Origin: Candidatus Polarisedimenticola svalbardensis
Lineage (GTDB): Bacteria > Acidobacteriota > Polarisedimenticolia > Polarisedimenticolales > Polarisedimenticolaceae
Direction of reading: 5' to 3'
DNA length: 64,000 nt
Assembly (NCBI GenBank): GCA_014764515.1
Contig: JACXWD010000016.1
Span: 1-64,000 of the forward strand
Positions 11,128 to 18,686 of this stretch are shown here, piece after piece; the first letter of the stretch is position 1, and every line of letters starts with the position of its first letter. The notes below the pieces were generated by a model. The model ran no database searches. It had not been told where the DNA came from and worked only from the letters and a program-made list of their open reading frames with translations. A program made the translations under genes and the position numbers.

Positions 11128-14100
11128 TCAGGTCACTTCCTTCCAGTTGGAACCTGTTTTCTGATCCACCGCCAGCCGGACCTTGAGGCTGTGCACCCCT
11201 TCCATTTCGGTCCGGACCAGGAGGGAAACCGGCGCGATCTCATCCTGCGGCACTTCCAGAAGCAGCTCATCATGCACCTGCAGGAGCATCCGGCTGGCAA
11301 GGTCCGCCCGGCTGAGAGCGGCATGCACGCGGATCATGGCCATTTTCATTAAATCTGCTGCGGTTCCCTGGATCGTGGTGTTCACCGCCGCCCGGAGTGC
11401 CTGTTCCTTGATCCCTCTGCCGGCCTTCTCCCGAAGCACGGGGAAATACCGCACACGGCCGAACAGGGTGCGGACCGCCCCTTCGGTCAGGGCGGTCTCT
11501 CGGACCTGGTCGATATATTCACGGACCCTGCCGAAGCGCTGGAAATAGGTCTTGATGAACTCTTTGGCTTCCGTGCGGCTCATGCCCTGCTCCCGGGCCA
11601 GGCGGGACTCGGACATTCCGTAGAGAATCCCGAAATTGACAGCCTTGGCTCGCCTGCGCATCTCGGGGGTCACCATGCCGGGCAATACACTGAACACCTT
11701 GGAGGCGGTGTGGCTGTGGATATCCTCCCCGGCGTTGAAGGCGGCGATCAGCTCCGGGTCATCGCATAGATGGGCCAGAACCCGCAATTCCACCTGGGAG
11801 TAGTCCGATGCGAGGAAGATCGAGCCTTCCTGGGGCACGAACGCCTGCCGGATCCGCAGGCCGGTGGGGGTGCGGGCCGGAATGTTCTGAAGGTTCGGAT
11901 CCGAAGACGACAACCGTCCGGTGGCGGCTCCAGTCGGGTGATAGGAGGTGTGCACCCGGCCGGTCTCAGGGTGGATCAGCCGCGGGAGGGCATCGACATA
12001 GGTGCCCTTGAGCTTGGTCAGCTCCCGGTACTCCAGCAACAGGGCGGCAATCGGATCGGTATCCTTAAGGTCCAGGAGGGCCTGGGCATCGGTGGAAGCC
12101 AGTCCGCCCTTGGCTGTTTTCCGCTTTGTGGCCAGCCCGAGCTTTTCGTAGAGGATCACCCGGAGTTGCTTGGGCGAATCGATATTGAACGGCTCGCCTG
12201 CCGCCTCATGGATCGCCTTGCGCAACAGGTCGAGGGCGGTACTGATCTCGATGGACATGTCGTCCAGCTGGTCCCGGTCTATCCGGATGCCACGAGCCTC
12301 CATCTCCGCCAGGATCACCAGCAGCGGCCCGTCCAGATCGTGGTAAAGACCTGTGAGGCCGGCCCGCTCCAGCCTTTCCGTCAACACGGCGGCCAGCCGG
12401 AAAGTGATGTCGGCGTCTTCCGCCGCATAGCGGCTCACTGTTTCCACCTGGACCTGGTTCAGGGTTTTACGGTGACGGCCCTCGCCCGCCACCTCGGCAA
12501 ACGATATCGGCGTGTACGCCAGGAACTCTTCGGACAGTGCATCCATCTTGTAAGTCAGCCGGCCCGGATCCAGGATGAACGCTCCGACCATCGTATCCAG
12601 CCGCCAGCCGTGGACCGGCAGGCCGTGGCGGCGCAGGAGATGCAGGTCGTATTTCAGGTTCTGGCCATACTTGCCTACCGAGGGGTCCGCCAGCAGCGGG
12701 CCCAGATGCTCCGCCAGAGTTTCAAGTGAGAGCTGCTCCGGCGCCCCCAGGTAATCGTGGCCGGTGGGGATGTACCAACCCGATCCAGACCTGCACGACA
12801 GGCTGATGCCGACCAGGCGGGCGCGCATCGGATCGACGCCGTCGGTCTCGGTGTCCACGGCGAAGGCGCCGGCCCCAGCACAGGCGGCCACAGCTTCCTG
12901 CAGTCGTTCCACGGTCAGCACCGTCTTGTAAGCCGCCTGCGACTGTCCTTCATCCGCCGGTTGCGGCACCGGTTCCGGCTCGGAAACAACAGGCGTCTCG
13001 GACGCCGCCGGTTCCGGTTCCGGGTCGGAGAATTTCTCCGTCAGGGTCTTGAACCCCAGTCCCCGGAACAGGGCTGCCGCCTGCTTGCGGTCCGGCTCCG
13101 CCTTCACCATTTCTTCCAGCCCCACCGCCATCGGGGCGTCGGTATCCAGCGTGGCGAGTTCCATACACAGGAGGGCCAGTTCCCGGTTCTCCCAGGTTGC
13201 ATACCATTGCCGCCGGGCGCTCTTCGGATCCAGCGCCTTCAACGTCTTCTTCGCCTCCCGGGCCGCCTTCTTCGTATCGGTAGTCAGCGTTTGCCCGGGA
13301 AGCTTCGCCACCGCTTCCGCCGCAGCCCGGGCCGCGACCAGGCGATCCCGCATGTCACCTTCCGGCTCCAGTTCCAACAGATGATCCAGCGCCGAGCAGC
13401 ACAACGCGGCGGTTTCCGGTTCCACCGTTTCACCTTTGAGACCACGGTCGATCGCTTCCACAACCCGGTCCCTGGCATCCCATGCGGTCACGAACCGTTC
13501 GGCTCGATCAAGCACCTGGGACAGCGACCCGTACGTCCGGACCATGTGGAGGGCGGTCTTCTCCCCCACACCGGGAACGCCGGGGATGTTGTCCACCGTA
13601 TCTCCCATGAGGCCCTGAACGTCCCGCACCCGTTCCGGCGGCACACCGAACGTCTCTTCCACGCCGCCAGGGTCAAGGCGCTTGTTCTTCCCCGGGTTCA
13701 GGAAAGTGACCTGCTCATCCACCAACTGCATCATGTCCTTGTCCGACGCGACGATTACCACCTGGAGACCTGCTTCGGACCCCACCCGCGCCGCGGTGGC
13801 GATCAGGTCGTCGGCCTCGAACAGCTCCTCTTCCAGGATCGGGATGTTCAGCACCCGGCAGACGTCTCGGGCATAGGGGAACTGGCGGTTGAGGTCTTCC
13901 GGAGGTTCGGGGCGGTTGGCCTTGTAGTCCGGGAAGCGATGGTGGCGAAACGTCTTTCCGGGAAGGTCGAAAGCAACGGCCAGATAGTCCGGCTCCTCTT
14001 CACGGATCAGTTTCAGCAGCATGGCGGCGAAGCCGTACACCGCGTTGGTAGGCAACCCATCTGCGTTGGACAGCCCCCGGATAGCGAAAAAGGCCCGGAA

Positions 14101-14157
14101 CACCTGCGCGGTGCCGTCAACGAGGTACAAGGTCCTGGGTTTTTGCGATCCGACCAT
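11128..14157 (-). CDS. polA: DNA polymerase I
   Basis: A 1009-residue enzyme with all three activities: 5'-3' flap exonuclease (residues 8-290, YLVDGTAQVFRAFFAIRG, FPDYKANRPEPPEDL), 3'-5' proofreading exonuclease (about 430-610, FAVDTETDG, GQNLKYDLHLL, YAAEDADITFRL, so acidic residues retained) and family A polymerase (620-1009, SDYSQVELRVLAH, RRAKAVNFGILYGMS, LLQVHDELLLEVP). It is longer than the usual ~930 residues because of a Glu/Pro-rich linker before the proofreading domain (around residues 380-420). The ATG has no clear ribosome site and is directly preceded by a stem-loop. Confidence 0.98.
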   Translation of the reverse strand: MVGSQKPRTLYLVDGTAQVFRAFFAIRGLSNADGLPTNAVYGFAAMLLKLIREEEPDYLAVAFDLPGKTFRHHRFPDYKANRPEPPEDLNRQFPYARDVCRVLNIPILEEELFEADDLIATAARVGSEAGLQVVIVASDKDMMQLVDEQVTFLNPGKNKRLDPGGVEETFGVPPERVRDVQGLMGDTVDNIPGVPGVGEKTALHMVRTYGSLSQVLDRAERFVTAWDARDRVVEAIDRGLKGETVEPETAALCCSALDHLLELEPEGDMRDRLVAARAAAEAVAKLPGQTLTTDTKKAAREAKKTLKALDPKSARRQWYATWENRELALLCMELATLDTDAPMAVGLEEMVKAEPDRKQAAALFRGLGFKTLTEKFSDPEPEPAASETPVVSEPEPVPQPADEGQSQAAYKTVLTVERLQEAVAACAGAGAFAVDTETDGVDPMRARLVGISLSCRSGSGWYIPTGHDYLGAPEQLSLETLAEHLGPLLADPSVGKYGQNLKYDLHLLRRHGLPVHGWRLDTMVGAFILDPGRLTYKMDALSEEFLAYTPISFAEVAGEGRHRKTLNQVQVETVSRYAAEDADITFRLAAVLTERLERAGLTGLYHDLDGPLLVILAEMEARGIRIDRDQLDDMSIEISTALDLLRKAIHEAAGEPFNIDSPKQLRVILYEKLGLATKRKTAKGGLASTDAQALLDLKDTDPIAALLLEYRELTKLKGTYVDALPRLIHPETGRVHTSYHPTGAATGRLSSSDPNLQNIPARTPTGLRIRQAFVPQEGSIFLASDYSQVELRVLAHLCDDPELIAAFNAGEDIHSHTASKVFSVLPGMVTPEMRRRAKAVNFGILYGMSESRLAREQGMSRTEAKEFIKTYFQRFGRVREYIDQVRETALTEGAVRTLFGRVRYFPVLREKAGRGIKEQALRAAVNTTIQGTAADLMKMAMIRVHAALSRADLASRMLLQVHDELLLEVPQDEIAPVSLLVRTEMEGVHSLKVRLAVDQKTGSNWKEVT

Positions 14158-14189: not shown

Positions 14190-15221
14190 CTATTTCACCA
14201 CCACCGTTTCAGGATGGAATCCGGCCCAGACAAACCAGAATATTTTCCGGGCGTCCAGTCTGGGGAGAGTCTCCCCCTCCATCAGCCCGGCAACCGCCTT
14301 GCCGGCGGCGGGATCCCAGCGACTGCCGGTTTCCCGGTCGATCAGTTGGCCATCTTCCAGGGTGAAGTGCAGCCGCATGCCGTCCGCAACCGGCCTGTAG
14401 GCGAATCCATCGCCTCCCGGTGATCGGATCGCCACTACAGGCCCATCGGCATCCAGTTCCAGAACGCCCTTTTTCTCCAGACGGCGGAGGGGAACCGCCG
14501 CATACGAACTCCCGGCCTCGATCCCCAGGACAAGAGTTTTGCCCGGCAGGCGTTTGTCCGGATTCTTCGTTCCCAGCACGCCCATCTTGTCCGGATCCTC
14601 AAAATAGTGCGCGTAAGGGCTGCCCGTTCTGGAGCGGGTATCCGGCTTCAGCACCAGGGTATCCGGATGCATCTTCTTCCATTCACCCCAACTGGTCTGC
14701 ACCGAGGGGTACTTGACGAGGCGCTTGCCCTTGTGGTCGCCGGTAAGGGAGCGGCCGTCAATCTGGCTCCAGTAACTCTCCGTATCCCGATCAAAGAAGA
14801 TCAACGCGTCCCGCCATAGGGCGCCGCTGACTCCGAACGTGGTTTCCTTGCCTTCGATTTCGCGGACGTACACGACGCCCGTAGATGCAAGCGGTCACCA
14901 GGTGGCCGCAACCGGCAACTGGCCGATGCGGTCGTTGACGATCTCGTGACCATCCAGGTACCAGGTCGGGTAGGCTCTTGCGTTGGTGCCGTCGAAAATC
15001 CCGATCACAGGCTCGTCGTCCTTCATGATCGAGCCGGCCTCCGCCGCCGGGATCATCTCGGGATCGTCGATGGCCGGGATGCCGTCTTTCGGCAGGAGGC
15101 GGATCAGGGGATCGCCTTCGATGGTGGCCTCTACCGTGCCCCGGCCCTGGGCCGACACAGGCAGGACGGCCAGCAGGAGGACCAGGATGGTGATGGGGCC
15201 AGGACCTCTGCGGGTTCTCAT
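14190..15221 (-). CDS. DUF3179 protein, probable selenoprotein (TGA = Sec109)
   Basis: Read through one in-frame TGA (14895-14897), this is a 343-residue exported protein. The ATG at 15221 has AAAGGAGA ten bases upstream and opens a signal peptide (MRTRRGPGPITILVLLLAVL). DUF3179 hallmarks occur on both sides of the TGA in the same frame: PVIGIFDGTNARAYP, HEIVNDRIGQLPVAATW before it; PLASTGVVY, FGVSGALW, DRDTESYWSQIDG, TSWGEWKKMHPDT after it. In the family the residue at the TGA is the conserved Cys of a T-[YF]-C-P-L motif. No ribosome site precedes the downstream GTG at 14873, so an independent second gene is unlikely. Last gene of the RND efflux operon. Function of DUF3179 is unknown; Sec suggests thiol redox or metal chemistry. 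Alternative: a nonsense-mutated gene. Confidence 0.82.
14863..14881 (-). promoter_or_regulatory. Candidate bacterial SECIS element in the DUF3179 gene
   Basis: On the minus strand a 7-bp stem (CGGGCGU with ACGUCCG, one G-U pair) closes a 5-nt loop CGUGU. The loop begins 20 nt after the TGA, and G is its second base. This fits the published bacterial SECIS rules: apical loop of 3-14 nt, upper stem of 4-16 bp, loop 16-37 nt after UGA, G among the first two loop bases. Not tested by folding software. Confidence 0.7.
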
Positions 15222-15264
15222 TGCTGCGAATCTCCTTTCGTATCCGGAGACCTTACAACAAGGG

Positions 15265-15432
15265 TCAGGCCCGGGGTATTCCGGTCTCTTCAGGAGGATC
15301 AGGTTCGTCGTCCCGCACGGGGACTTCATGGGGCGCCGCCATTCACGTCTGAACACCCATGCGGGGCAGGATCCAGCGCTGCAACGCGAAGTAACCGGCC
15401 ACCAGCCCCACTATCAGAAGAAAATCGTTCAA
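15265..15432 (-). CDS. Small one-helix membrane protein, possible selenoprotein
   Basis: Starts on TTG inside the RND stop codon (TTGA overlap) with GGAAGG upstream. The first 29 residues are a membrane helix and a basic turn (LLIVGLVAGYFALQRW, then ILPRMGVQT), followed by an in-frame TGA at 15343-15345. Reading on gives 25 more acidic, Pro-rich residues to a TGA at 15265-15267, 55 in all. If the first TGA is a stop, the gene ends at 15343. A hairpin like the one in the next gene follows the TGA. Too short for normal gene callers. It lies between the RND pump and the DUF3179 gene, so it may be a small partner of the pump. I cannot confirm homologues. Confidence 0.55.
15310..15324 (-). promoter_or_regulatory. 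Candidate bacterial SECIS element in the small membrane ORF
   Basis: On the minus strand GUCCC pairs with GGGAC around the loop CGUGC. The loop starts 23 nt after the TGA at 15343-15345 and has G as its second base. Loop size, loop sequence and distance almost repeat those of the hairpin in the DUF3179 gene. The five-bp stem is short, and such hairpins are common by chance in GC-rich DNA. Confidence 0.45.
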
Positions 15433-18400
15433 TTCTTGCCTTCCTTTTTTGTCAGCCATTCCGCCGGCAGCGGCGCCTCATGGTTGCCTCGCTCCACGAT
15501 GTAGTAGACCAGCGGCACCACCACCAGGGTCAACACGGTGGAGGCGATCGCCCCTCCCATCAGGGCGATGGCCAGGCCCTGAAAGATCGGGTCGAACAGT
15601 ATCACCACCGCCCCGGCCACTACCGTACCGGCGGTTAGCAGGATCGGACGGAACCGCACCGCCCCTGCTTCCACCACCGCCTCTCCCAGGCTTTTCCCTT
15701 CGGCCAGGGAGAGATGTACGAAGTCAATCAACAACACGGCGTTCCGCACCATAATTCCCGCCAGGGCGATAAACCCGATCATGGAGGTTGCGGTAAAGAA
15801 CGCGCCGAACAACCAGTGCCCCGGGAGAACGCCGACCAGGGACAGTGGGATGGAGATCATCATGACCAGCGGAACCTTGAACGACTTGAACCAGGCGATG
15901 ATCAGCATGTAGATCAGGATCATGACCACGCCGAAGGCAGCGCCCATGTCACGGAAAACCTCGTAGGTGATGTGCCACTCCCCGTCCCACTTCATGGCGA
16001 CGTCTTCGTCGGTAGGAGGCGCATCGGTGTAGTACTGCTCCACCGTGGTTCCTGCAGGACTCTTCAGCTCTTCGATTTTTTCGGCCAGGGCCATGATGGC
16101 GTATACCGGGCTTTCCTCAGTACCGGCCACATCACCGGTTACGTAGACCACCGGACGGAGATTCTTGCGATGGCGGCTGACCTGCTGTTCGGTCTTACGA
16201 ACCGATACCAGTTCGGAGAGAGGGACCAGGGCGCCATTCATGGAGACAACCCGCACCGTCTGAAGCCGGTCTACCGATGAGCGCTCGGCCCGGGGCATCC
16301 GGAGCTGGATAGACACCGGCTCGGTGGCGGCAGGGTCATGGAGCACACCGACCTGCTCCCCTGCCAGGGCCAGGCGGAGGGTTCTGGCTACCTGCGCCGC
16401 CGCCACACCGTGGAGCGCCGCCTTCTCACGGTCGACCTCGAACACGGTCTTCGGCTGTCTTTCCTCCACGAACCAGTCCACATCGACCACACCTTCAGTC
16501 GACTTGAAAATGTTCAGGATCTCCCGGGCGGTGCCGATCCGGCTGTCCTGATCCGGGCCGTACACTTCCGCCACCAGGGTGGAAAGCACAGGCGGACCTG
16601 GCGGGATCTCCAGGACCTTGACCGCTGCGCCGTAACGGTCGCCGATCTCCACAATCCCCGGCCGGATACGTTTCGCGATCGGGTGGCTCTGATCCTCCCG
16701 GTCATGCTTCGGCAGCAGGTTGACCTGAAGGTCGGCCACGTTGGCTCCCTGCCGCAGATCGTAGTGCCGCACCAGGCCGTTGAAATTGTACGGCGCCGAA
16801 GCCCCGGCGTAGATCTGGAGATCGGTCACTTCCGGCACTGTTCGAAGGTACTCGCCGATCTCCTGGGCTACGGCGGTCGTCCGTTCCAGGGCGGTCCCTT
16901 CAGGCATGTCAATGACGATCTGCAGCTCACTCTTGTTGTCGAACGGCAGCATCTTCACGGTAACCATCTTTGCGGGGACCATCAGGATCGACAGCACCAG
17001 CAGTACGGTCACGGCGCCAAGGAACAACAGTCCCTTCCAGGGCGCAACCACCATCGGTACGAGAATCCTGTGATAGATGCGGTAGATCCACGTCTTTTGC
17101 AGGGCGTCGTCTTCCGCTTCCTGACCGTGAGCGTGGCCGCCTTTCAACAGGCGGTAGGCCAGCCACGGCGCGGCGGAGAGGGCGATCCCCAGGGAGAACA
17201 TCATCGCAAGGGATGCGCCGATCGGCATCGGCAGCATGTACGGCCCCATCAGCCCCCTCACAAACGCCAGCGGAAGCACCGCGGCGATGACGGTGAAGGT
17301 GGCCAGGATCGTCGGGTTCCCGACTTCGCTGACGGCGAACACCGCTGCGTCCAGGGCGGGCCGTTTCTTCATGGCGAAGTGCCGGACGATGTTCTCCACA
17401 ACGATAATGGAATCGTCAACCACGATGCCGGTGACGAATATCAGGGCGAACAGAGTCACCCGGTTCAGGGTGAAATCGAACAGGTAGTAGACGAACAGGG
17501 TCAGGGCGAAGGTGACCGGCACCGAGACGAACACCACCAGGCCGCCTCGCCACCCGAGGAACAGGGCGATGACCAGTGTCACCGTCAGGATAGCAAGGAT
17601 CAGGTGGGTCAACAGTTCCCTGGCCTTTTCCGAGGAAGTCGCACCGTAGTCCCTTGTGACGGTGACCTGCACATCGGAGGGGATCAGCCGCTCCTGCAGG
17701 TCCTCCACCCGTTGCATCGCCCGCCGTACTACTTTTTCGGCGTCGGAGCCCTTGCGCTTTGAGACGGCGATGGTCACCGCCGAAGTCATCAGGTCCTGTC
17801 CCGGCTGGACCTCGATTCCCCGGGCGCCGGCAGCCGGCCCCGGCATGAACATCACATAAGTCGTCGCCTCTTCCGGGCCGTCACGCACCTGGGCTACATC
17901 GGTCAGGTAAACCGGCCTGCCGCCATGGACGCCGACCACGATATTCCGCACCGATTCCACATCGGTGAGGAATGCGCCGGTCTCCACCAACAGCTCCCGG
18001 TTCCCTTCTTCAAGCGAACCGGCCGGCATGGTTGCGTTCTGGACGGTAAGAGCGAACGCCACAGCCGCCGGATCGACACCGAACGCCGCCATCCGGCCTG
18101 GGTCCAGGAGAACCTGCACCTGCCTGCGCTGCCCGCCGGTCAGCCGGATGTCGGAAACGTCTTCCAGCTTGGCGATCTCCTTCGCCAGTTCCGCAGCGAT
18201 CTGCCGGAGTTGGAAAGAGTCGTAGTTCTGGCCCCACAAGGTCAGGGCCAGCACCGGGACATCGTCGATGGTACGTAGTTTCACAAGGGGCAGAGTCGCC
18301 CCGGCCGGCATCTGGTTCATGTTGCCGGCGATTTTGTCGTACAGCTTCACCAGGGATCGTTCCTGGTCCTCTCCAACCAGGAACCGGACGGTGATCATGC

Positions 18401-18686
18401 TCAGACCGGGCATGGAGGCGGAGTAGACGTACTCGACCCCCGGGATCTCCCACATCTTCTTCTCGAGGGGGATGGTGATCCGGCTCTCCACTTCCTCAGG
18501 CGATGCGCCGGGCATCCCGACAAACAGGTCGACCATGGGAACCACGATCTGCGGTTCTTCCTCCCGCGGGGTGTTCATTACGGCGAACACTCCCAGGATC
18601 ATCGCGGCAACGACGATCAGAGGGGTGAGCTTGGACTCGATGAAGAAATGGGCGATCCGACCGGCCGGTCCCATGGAGGAGGTCAT
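15429..18686 (-). CDS. RND efflux transporter, inner membrane pump subunit
   Basis: A 1085-residue RND permease with two six-helix-like halves and two large periplasmic loops. The first helix follows MTSSMGPAGRIAHFFIESKL; the porter domain starts with NTPREEEPQIVVPMVDLF. The TM4 motif FVTGIVVDDSIIVVENI carries the two aspartates of the proton relay. The C-terminal half has a repeat of the same pattern (GFIALAGIMVRNAVLLIDFV), without the DD as usual. It pumps substrates across the envelope with the adaptor and TolC-like gene upstream. Substrate class (drug, lipid, metal) is not clear from the sequence. The stop overlaps the start of the small membrane ORF. Confidence 0.95.
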   Translation of the reverse strand: MTSSMGPAGRIAHFFIESKLTPLIVVAAMILGVFAVMNTPREEEPQIVVPMVDLFVGMPGASPEEVESRITIPLEKKMWEIPGVEYVYSASMPGLSMITVRFLVGEDQERSLVKLYDKIAGNMNQMPAGATLPLVKLRTIDDVPVLALTLWGQNYDSFQLRQIAAELAKEIAKLEDVSDIRLTGGQRRQVQVLLDPGRMAAFGVDPAAVAFALTVQNATMPAGSLEEGNRELLVETGAFLTDVESVRNIVVGVHGGRPVYLTDVAQVRDGPEEATTYVMFMPGPAAGARGIEVQPGQDLMTSAVTIAVSKRKGSDAEKVVRRAMQRVEDLQERLIPSDVQVTVTRDYGATSSEKARELLTHLILAILTVTLVIALFLGWRGGLVVFVSVPVTFALTLFVYYLFDFTLNRVTLFALIFVTGIVVDDSIIVVENIVRHFAMKKRPALDAAVFAVSEVGNPTILATFTVIAAVLPLAFVRGLMGPYMLPMPIGASLAMMFSLGIALSAAPWLAYRLLKGGHAHGQEAEDDALQKTWIYRIYHRILVPMVVAPWKGLLFLGAVTVLLVLSILMVPAKMVTVKMLPFDNKSELQIVIDMPEGTALERTTAVAQEIGEYLRTVPEVTDLQIYAGASAPYNFNGLVRHYDLRQGANVADLQVNLLPKHDREDQSHPIAKRIRPGIVEIGDRYGAAVKVLEIPPGPPVLSTLVAEVYGPDQDSRIGTAREILNIFKSTEGVVDVDWFVEERQPKTVFEVDREKAALHGVAAAQVARTLRLALAGEQVGVLHDPAATEPVSIQLRMPRAERSSVDRLQTVRVVSMNGALVPLSELVSVRKTEQQVSRHRKNLRPVVYVTGDVAGTEESPVYAIMALAEKIEELKSPAGTTVEQYYTDAPPTDEDVAMKWDGEWHITYEVFRDMGAAFGVVMILIYMLIIAWFKSFKVPLVMMISIPLSLVGVLPGHWLFGAFFTATSMIGFIALAGIMVRNAVLLIDFVHLSLAEGKSLGEAVVEAGAVRFRPILLTAGTVVAGAVVILFDPIFQGLAIALMGGAIASTVLTLVVVPLVYYIVERGNHEAPLPAEWLTKKEGKN

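Follow-up and report, generated by a model that had tools for sequence, protein, structure and literature searches.

A Cysteine-free DUF3179 Gene with an In-frame UGA That Is Very Probably Read as Selenocysteine

RESULTS

The DUF3179 gene and its reading frame

The window, a stretch of 64,000 nucleotides, carries a DUF3179 gene of 343 codons on its minus strand (15221..14190), running from an ATG at 15221 to a TAG at 14190–14192. In frame translation the sole interruption is a TGA at 14897–14895, which is codon 109 of the 343 and stands in the context UGAC. The initial annotation had given the same gene coordinates, leaving the strand unstated, and had described a frame intact on either side of a single TGA. 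This is borne out by the translation and by the match of the read-through product to the Pfam family DUF3179 (PF11376; E = 3.8e-81, 273.1 bits against a gathering cut-off of 27), which spans profile positions 1–292 of 292 across the TGA. The four motifs it had named (HEIVND, LPVAATW, PLASTGVVY, and FGVSGALW) are all present in the translation. Its expectation that a gene finder would split the gene is also matched by the plain ORF list, in which the frame is broken into a piece of 153 residues (14895..15356) and a piece of 227 residues with a GTG start (14190..14873).

A Shine-Dalgarno-like AAGGAGA lies 9 nt 5' of the ATG (15231..15237, minus strand). The internal GTG at 14873, which sits within the hairpin described below, has no comparable site ahead of it, in agreement with the earlier statement that a downstream restart has no ribosome site. 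The N terminus reads as a probable signal peptide (15150..15221, minus strand), MRTRRGPGPITILVLLLAVLPVSA/QG, in which a basic start, a hydrophobic core, and V-S-A ahead of Q can be recognized by eye, and the protein is therefore probably exported. Profile comparison divides the remainder into a first half, residues 28–210, that includes the putative Sec-109 (14592..15140, minus strand), and a second half, residues 211–343, that is a repeat without Sec or Cys (14193..14591, minus strand).

The gene is flanked on one side by the RND gene of an RND-efflux operon (18686..15429) and on the other by a polA-like gene (14157..11128), both on the minus strand and named from sequence alone. A possible membrane-like ORF of 29 codons with a TTG start (15342–15431, minus strand) lies immediately before DUF3179 and overlaps the RND gene at its end. 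A gene-neighborhood comparison of 40 loci revealed no conserved partner gene, and most of the shared neighbor clusters resemble chance out-of-frame ORFs. Because the neighbors are not conserved, gene context gives no hint of function.

The TGA column in homologues

Homologues were collected by searching 41 genomes of the class with the DUF3179 profile and 396 genomes of the phylum with the read-through protein. At the column of codon 109 (14895..14897, minus strand), there are 43 or 44 distinct genes with TGA, the count depending on the length used for calling duplicates; Cys occupies the column in 16 others, and Asn, Ser, or His in 11. The TGA form occurs in many families across the phylum. 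When named genome contigs were scanned with the single protein, only one distant Cys relative was returned. The initial annotation had proposed looking for Cys at this column, and the direct homologues indeed have either TGA or Cys there. The Cys-containing proteins are homologous to the window protein over the full length and share the conserved column (CSIA in L033, CPLC in L067), but they have a Cys codon in place of TGA, and their hairpin is degraded.

In the phylogeny the window gene groups with L031 and L032, which both have UPLA and TGA (SH-aLRT 95). The ratio dN/dS 3' of the TGA is 0.21–0.25 in the pairs L031/L032, window/L031, L060/L063, and L027/L034, although dS is high in every pair except L031/L032, so that the other ratios are rough. 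The low values after the TGA are unlike those of a pseudogene or of a sequence behind a true stop.

A residue other than Cys or Sec in the column had been named as evidence that would count against selenocysteine, and formally the Asn/Ser/His proteins are of this kind. They form a separate clade of paralogues (L018, L038, L041, L044–L047, and L049–L052; SH-aLRT 100), to which the host's own second DUF3179 copy belongs (L018, G000:C76:24698-25189; Asn in the column). Like the window gene, the members of this clade score above the PF11376 cut-off. Unlike it, they have neither Cys nor Sec in the column in 10 of 11 rows, the remaining row having Cys, and they have no SECIS. They do not refute selenocysteine, because they constitute a different subfamily.

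A hairpin that co-varies with the TGA

Downstream of the UGA lies a candidate bacterial SECIS hairpin (14863..14881, minus strand), which was found exactly where the initial annotation had placed it. Its stem, CGGGCGU/ACGUCCG, has 7 bp with one G-U pair, and it carries a 5-nt loop, CGUGU (14870–14874). The hairpin starts 13 nt downstream of the UGA, and the distance from the UGA to the loop is 20 nt. The published bSECIS model describes a loop of 3–9 nt, a stem of 4–16 bp, a G within the first two loop positions, and a distance of 16–37 nt from the UGA (PMC13188914). With a 5-nt loop whose second position is G, 7 bp, and 20 nt, the hairpin agrees with this model, as had been claimed.

RNA folding had been suggested as a check. 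The window hairpin folded alone is not significant (z = +0.82), and 9.5% of synonymous shuffles yield a hairpin equal to or better than it; comparative evidence was therefore used, and it decides the matter, lying well outside what chance would give. In an alignment of 38 Sec homologues, 95.9% of the cells in the stem columns (17–23/29–35 after the TGA) are paired. Compensatory changes occur at 6 of the 7 stem pairs, with 29 two-sided-change cells against 4.5 expected, and the covariation score is 0.405 compared with 0.128 after shuffling. When the partner strand is slid by 1–3 columns, pairing falls to 24–45%, and RNAalifold, unprompted, returns the same structure. In the Cys homologues, 42% of the same cells are paired. 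L033 and L067 are Cys forms nested among Sec forms in which the TGA and the stem have both been lost, providing natural examples of a change from Sec to Cys. In a Sec subgroup with the motif UTLC (L035, L036, L040, L042, and L043), the hairpin, CCACACC-GGUCU-GGUGUGG, sits elsewhere than in the UPLx group, and these genes were excluded from the 38-sequence alignment. Rfam gave no match within the window at curated thresholds, nor over the gene region at relaxed thresholds.

Selenocysteine machinery of the host genome

The initial annotation had proposed a search of the genome for selA, selB, selC, and selD, and all four were found in the host. The matches to selA (484.6 bits), selB (326 bits), and tRNA-Sec (73.3 bits; anticodon TCA according to ARAGORN) are over their cut-offs, and selD is matched with 365.8 bits. 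The host selD has an in-frame TGA of its own close to the start, giving SYAACAGUASKMG, and UGA therefore appears to be used for Sec elsewhere in this genome. The host assembly consists of 180 contigs with 4.86% contamination, so that in principle the Sec genes and the DUF3179 contig could come from different organisms. This concern is immaterial, because TGA is present in the same column in other genomes. tRNA-Sec is over the cut-off in 46 of the 50 genomes with a TGA form, compared with 272 of the 396 genomes as a whole (Fisher p = 6e-5). The other 4 genomes all have a selB match, which is over the cut-off in 3 and partial in 1 (a 65% complete genome).

Motif and cysteine content

DUF3179 (pfam11376) has already been catalogued as a selenoprotein family with the motif UxxC/T (PMC9312934 Table; PMC13188914 Table 1). 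The window protein belongs to the same Pfam family, has its Sec position in a motif of the T-[YFW]-U-P-L type, and has Cys homologues at the column, as the catalogued members do. It differs from them in having UPLA (UxxA) in place of UxxC/T and in containing no Cys anywhere. The initial annotation had remarked as odd that Ala leaves no second thiol adjacent to Sec; UPLA is confirmed, and the absence of Cys extends to the whole protein. Among 43 distinct Sec members from the phylum, Ala occupies position +3 in 17, Cys in 15, and Thr in 7, with another residue in 4. The oddity is therefore real and common and does not indicate a defect of the window gene. Because UxxC/T is a description and not a criterion of PF11376, we read the motif as broader rather than as excluding the protein from the family. 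No Cys occurs in the region examined in 20 of the 43 Sec members, some of which are partial. NCBIfam has no model matching the window protein, and the literature found on DUF3179 gives no function.

Predicted fold and internal duplication

The two halves of DUF3179 are homologous (hhalign probability 99.6%, E=8.2e-25), with Sec in the first half only. Judged from this profile comparison, DUF3179 is an internal tandem duplication. By sequence, no solved structure was found for the window protein. An AlphaFold2 model calculated from the family alignment has a pLDDT of 91.9 and a pTM of 0.88. Among the conserved residues, H92, D97, W151, and W181 are candidates for the surroundings of Sec-109. 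When this model was compared with the Protein Data Bank using Foldseek, the best matches were Rieske domains (probability ~1.0, target TM ~0.6), although their E-values, 0.015 or worse, are not significant. Matches to haemoglobin-type structures were rejected as chance. The model also matches an uncharacterised protein of the giant virus Indivirus ILV1 (BFVD A0A1V0SD44; Foldseek E=6e-9, TMt 0.61).

Rieske [2Fe-2S] domains may resemble the DUF3179 model in predicted fold topology, and they show a weak sequence register with the second half. They differ from it in their cluster ligands, C-x-H and C-x-x-H, which are absent from the Cys-free window protein. A Rieske origin is unsupported in sequence, since the hhalign probability is at most 3% and not significant, and the window protein has no sequence match to Rieske proteins at E up to 10. 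The Rieske-like topology of the predicted fold is thus a weak lead. If the weak register of the second half is moved to the first half, Sec would lie on a hairpin before the Rieske cluster motifs and would not be a cluster ligand; this too serves as a lead only.

DISCUSSION

The UGA at codon 109 is, by comparison with its homologues, almost certainly read as Sec and not as a stop. Support comes from the continuous frame, the occupancy of the homologous column by UGA or Cys, a hairpin that co-evolves with the UGA, the host's Sec machinery, and the apparent purifying selection after the UGA. The earlier proposal of a probable selenoprotein is upheld by the machinery, the column, and a covariation that is limited to the TGA homologues. 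In the proposed mechanism, a ribosome arriving at the UGA would meet SelB with Sec-tRNA-Sec bound to the hairpin 13 nt downstream, and Sec would be inserted instead of termination, yielding a single protein of 343 residues.

If the UGA were instead a true stop, the N-terminal part would be made as a short exported protein and the C-terminal part separately, starting at the GTG at 14873, or else regulated leakage would give little full-length product. Both fragments are open frames and the GTG is just downstream of the TGA, but this GTG lacks a ribosome-binding site and lies inside the hairpin. The fragments would also cut one fold that is predicted with high confidence, and both parts are in a single frame in the Cys homologues. 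We regard a true stop as very improbable.

Even less credit can be given to an ordinary Cys gene in which a TGC or TGT codon was turned into TGA by nonsense mutation or by an error in sequencing, the gene then being a pseudogene or misread. The TGA is one base away from the Cys codons and the assembly is a draft, but a chance event of this kind is opposed by the TGA in the same column of 43–44 distinct genes from many independent genomes, by the co-evolving hairpin that is tied to the TGA, and by the low dN/dS downstream.

Low-level read-through of UGA as Trp or Cys is generally known, and apart from Asn, Ser, or His in the paralogue clade the column shows nothing but Sec or Cys; decoding as some other amino acid, such as Cys or Trp, through near-cognate read-through or an altered code, independent of SelB, is nevertheless scarcely credible, since it would leave the hairpin and the Sec machinery unexplained, and since the neighboring window genes and the frames of the selA and selB matches are uninterrupted by TGA, which is therefore not a general sense codon.

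Selenocysteine thus being the preferred reading, the locus holds a genuine DUF3179 selenoprotein gene. It represents no new family or kind, because the catalogues already include the family as a selenoprotein. As to its role, our best and still tentative suggestion is that the protein could act in the cell envelope as a single-selenol redox catalyst or as a selenol ligand, resolved from outside the polypeptide, although the odds are somewhat against this. Because the protein has no other Sec or Cys with which to form an internal bond, turnover would need an external thiol or another molecule. The combined picture of a Cys-free exported selenoprotein with a lone Sec, built on a duplicated Rieske-like fold without Fe-S ligands and needing no resolving thiol of its own, is more speculative and, in our estimation, unlikely.

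Gene finders break genes of this kind into two pieces, and selenoproteins are consequently lost from annotations. The collected genes show that DUF3179 selenoproteins occur commonly within one phylum and that UxxC/T, as published, describes them too narrowly, since many of the Sec members have Ala or another residue at +3. About half of the Sec members examined are Cys-free, which argues against an intramolecular selenenylsulfide as the general mechanism of the family. These Cys-free members pose a concrete and testable question, namely what role a lone exported selenol may play.
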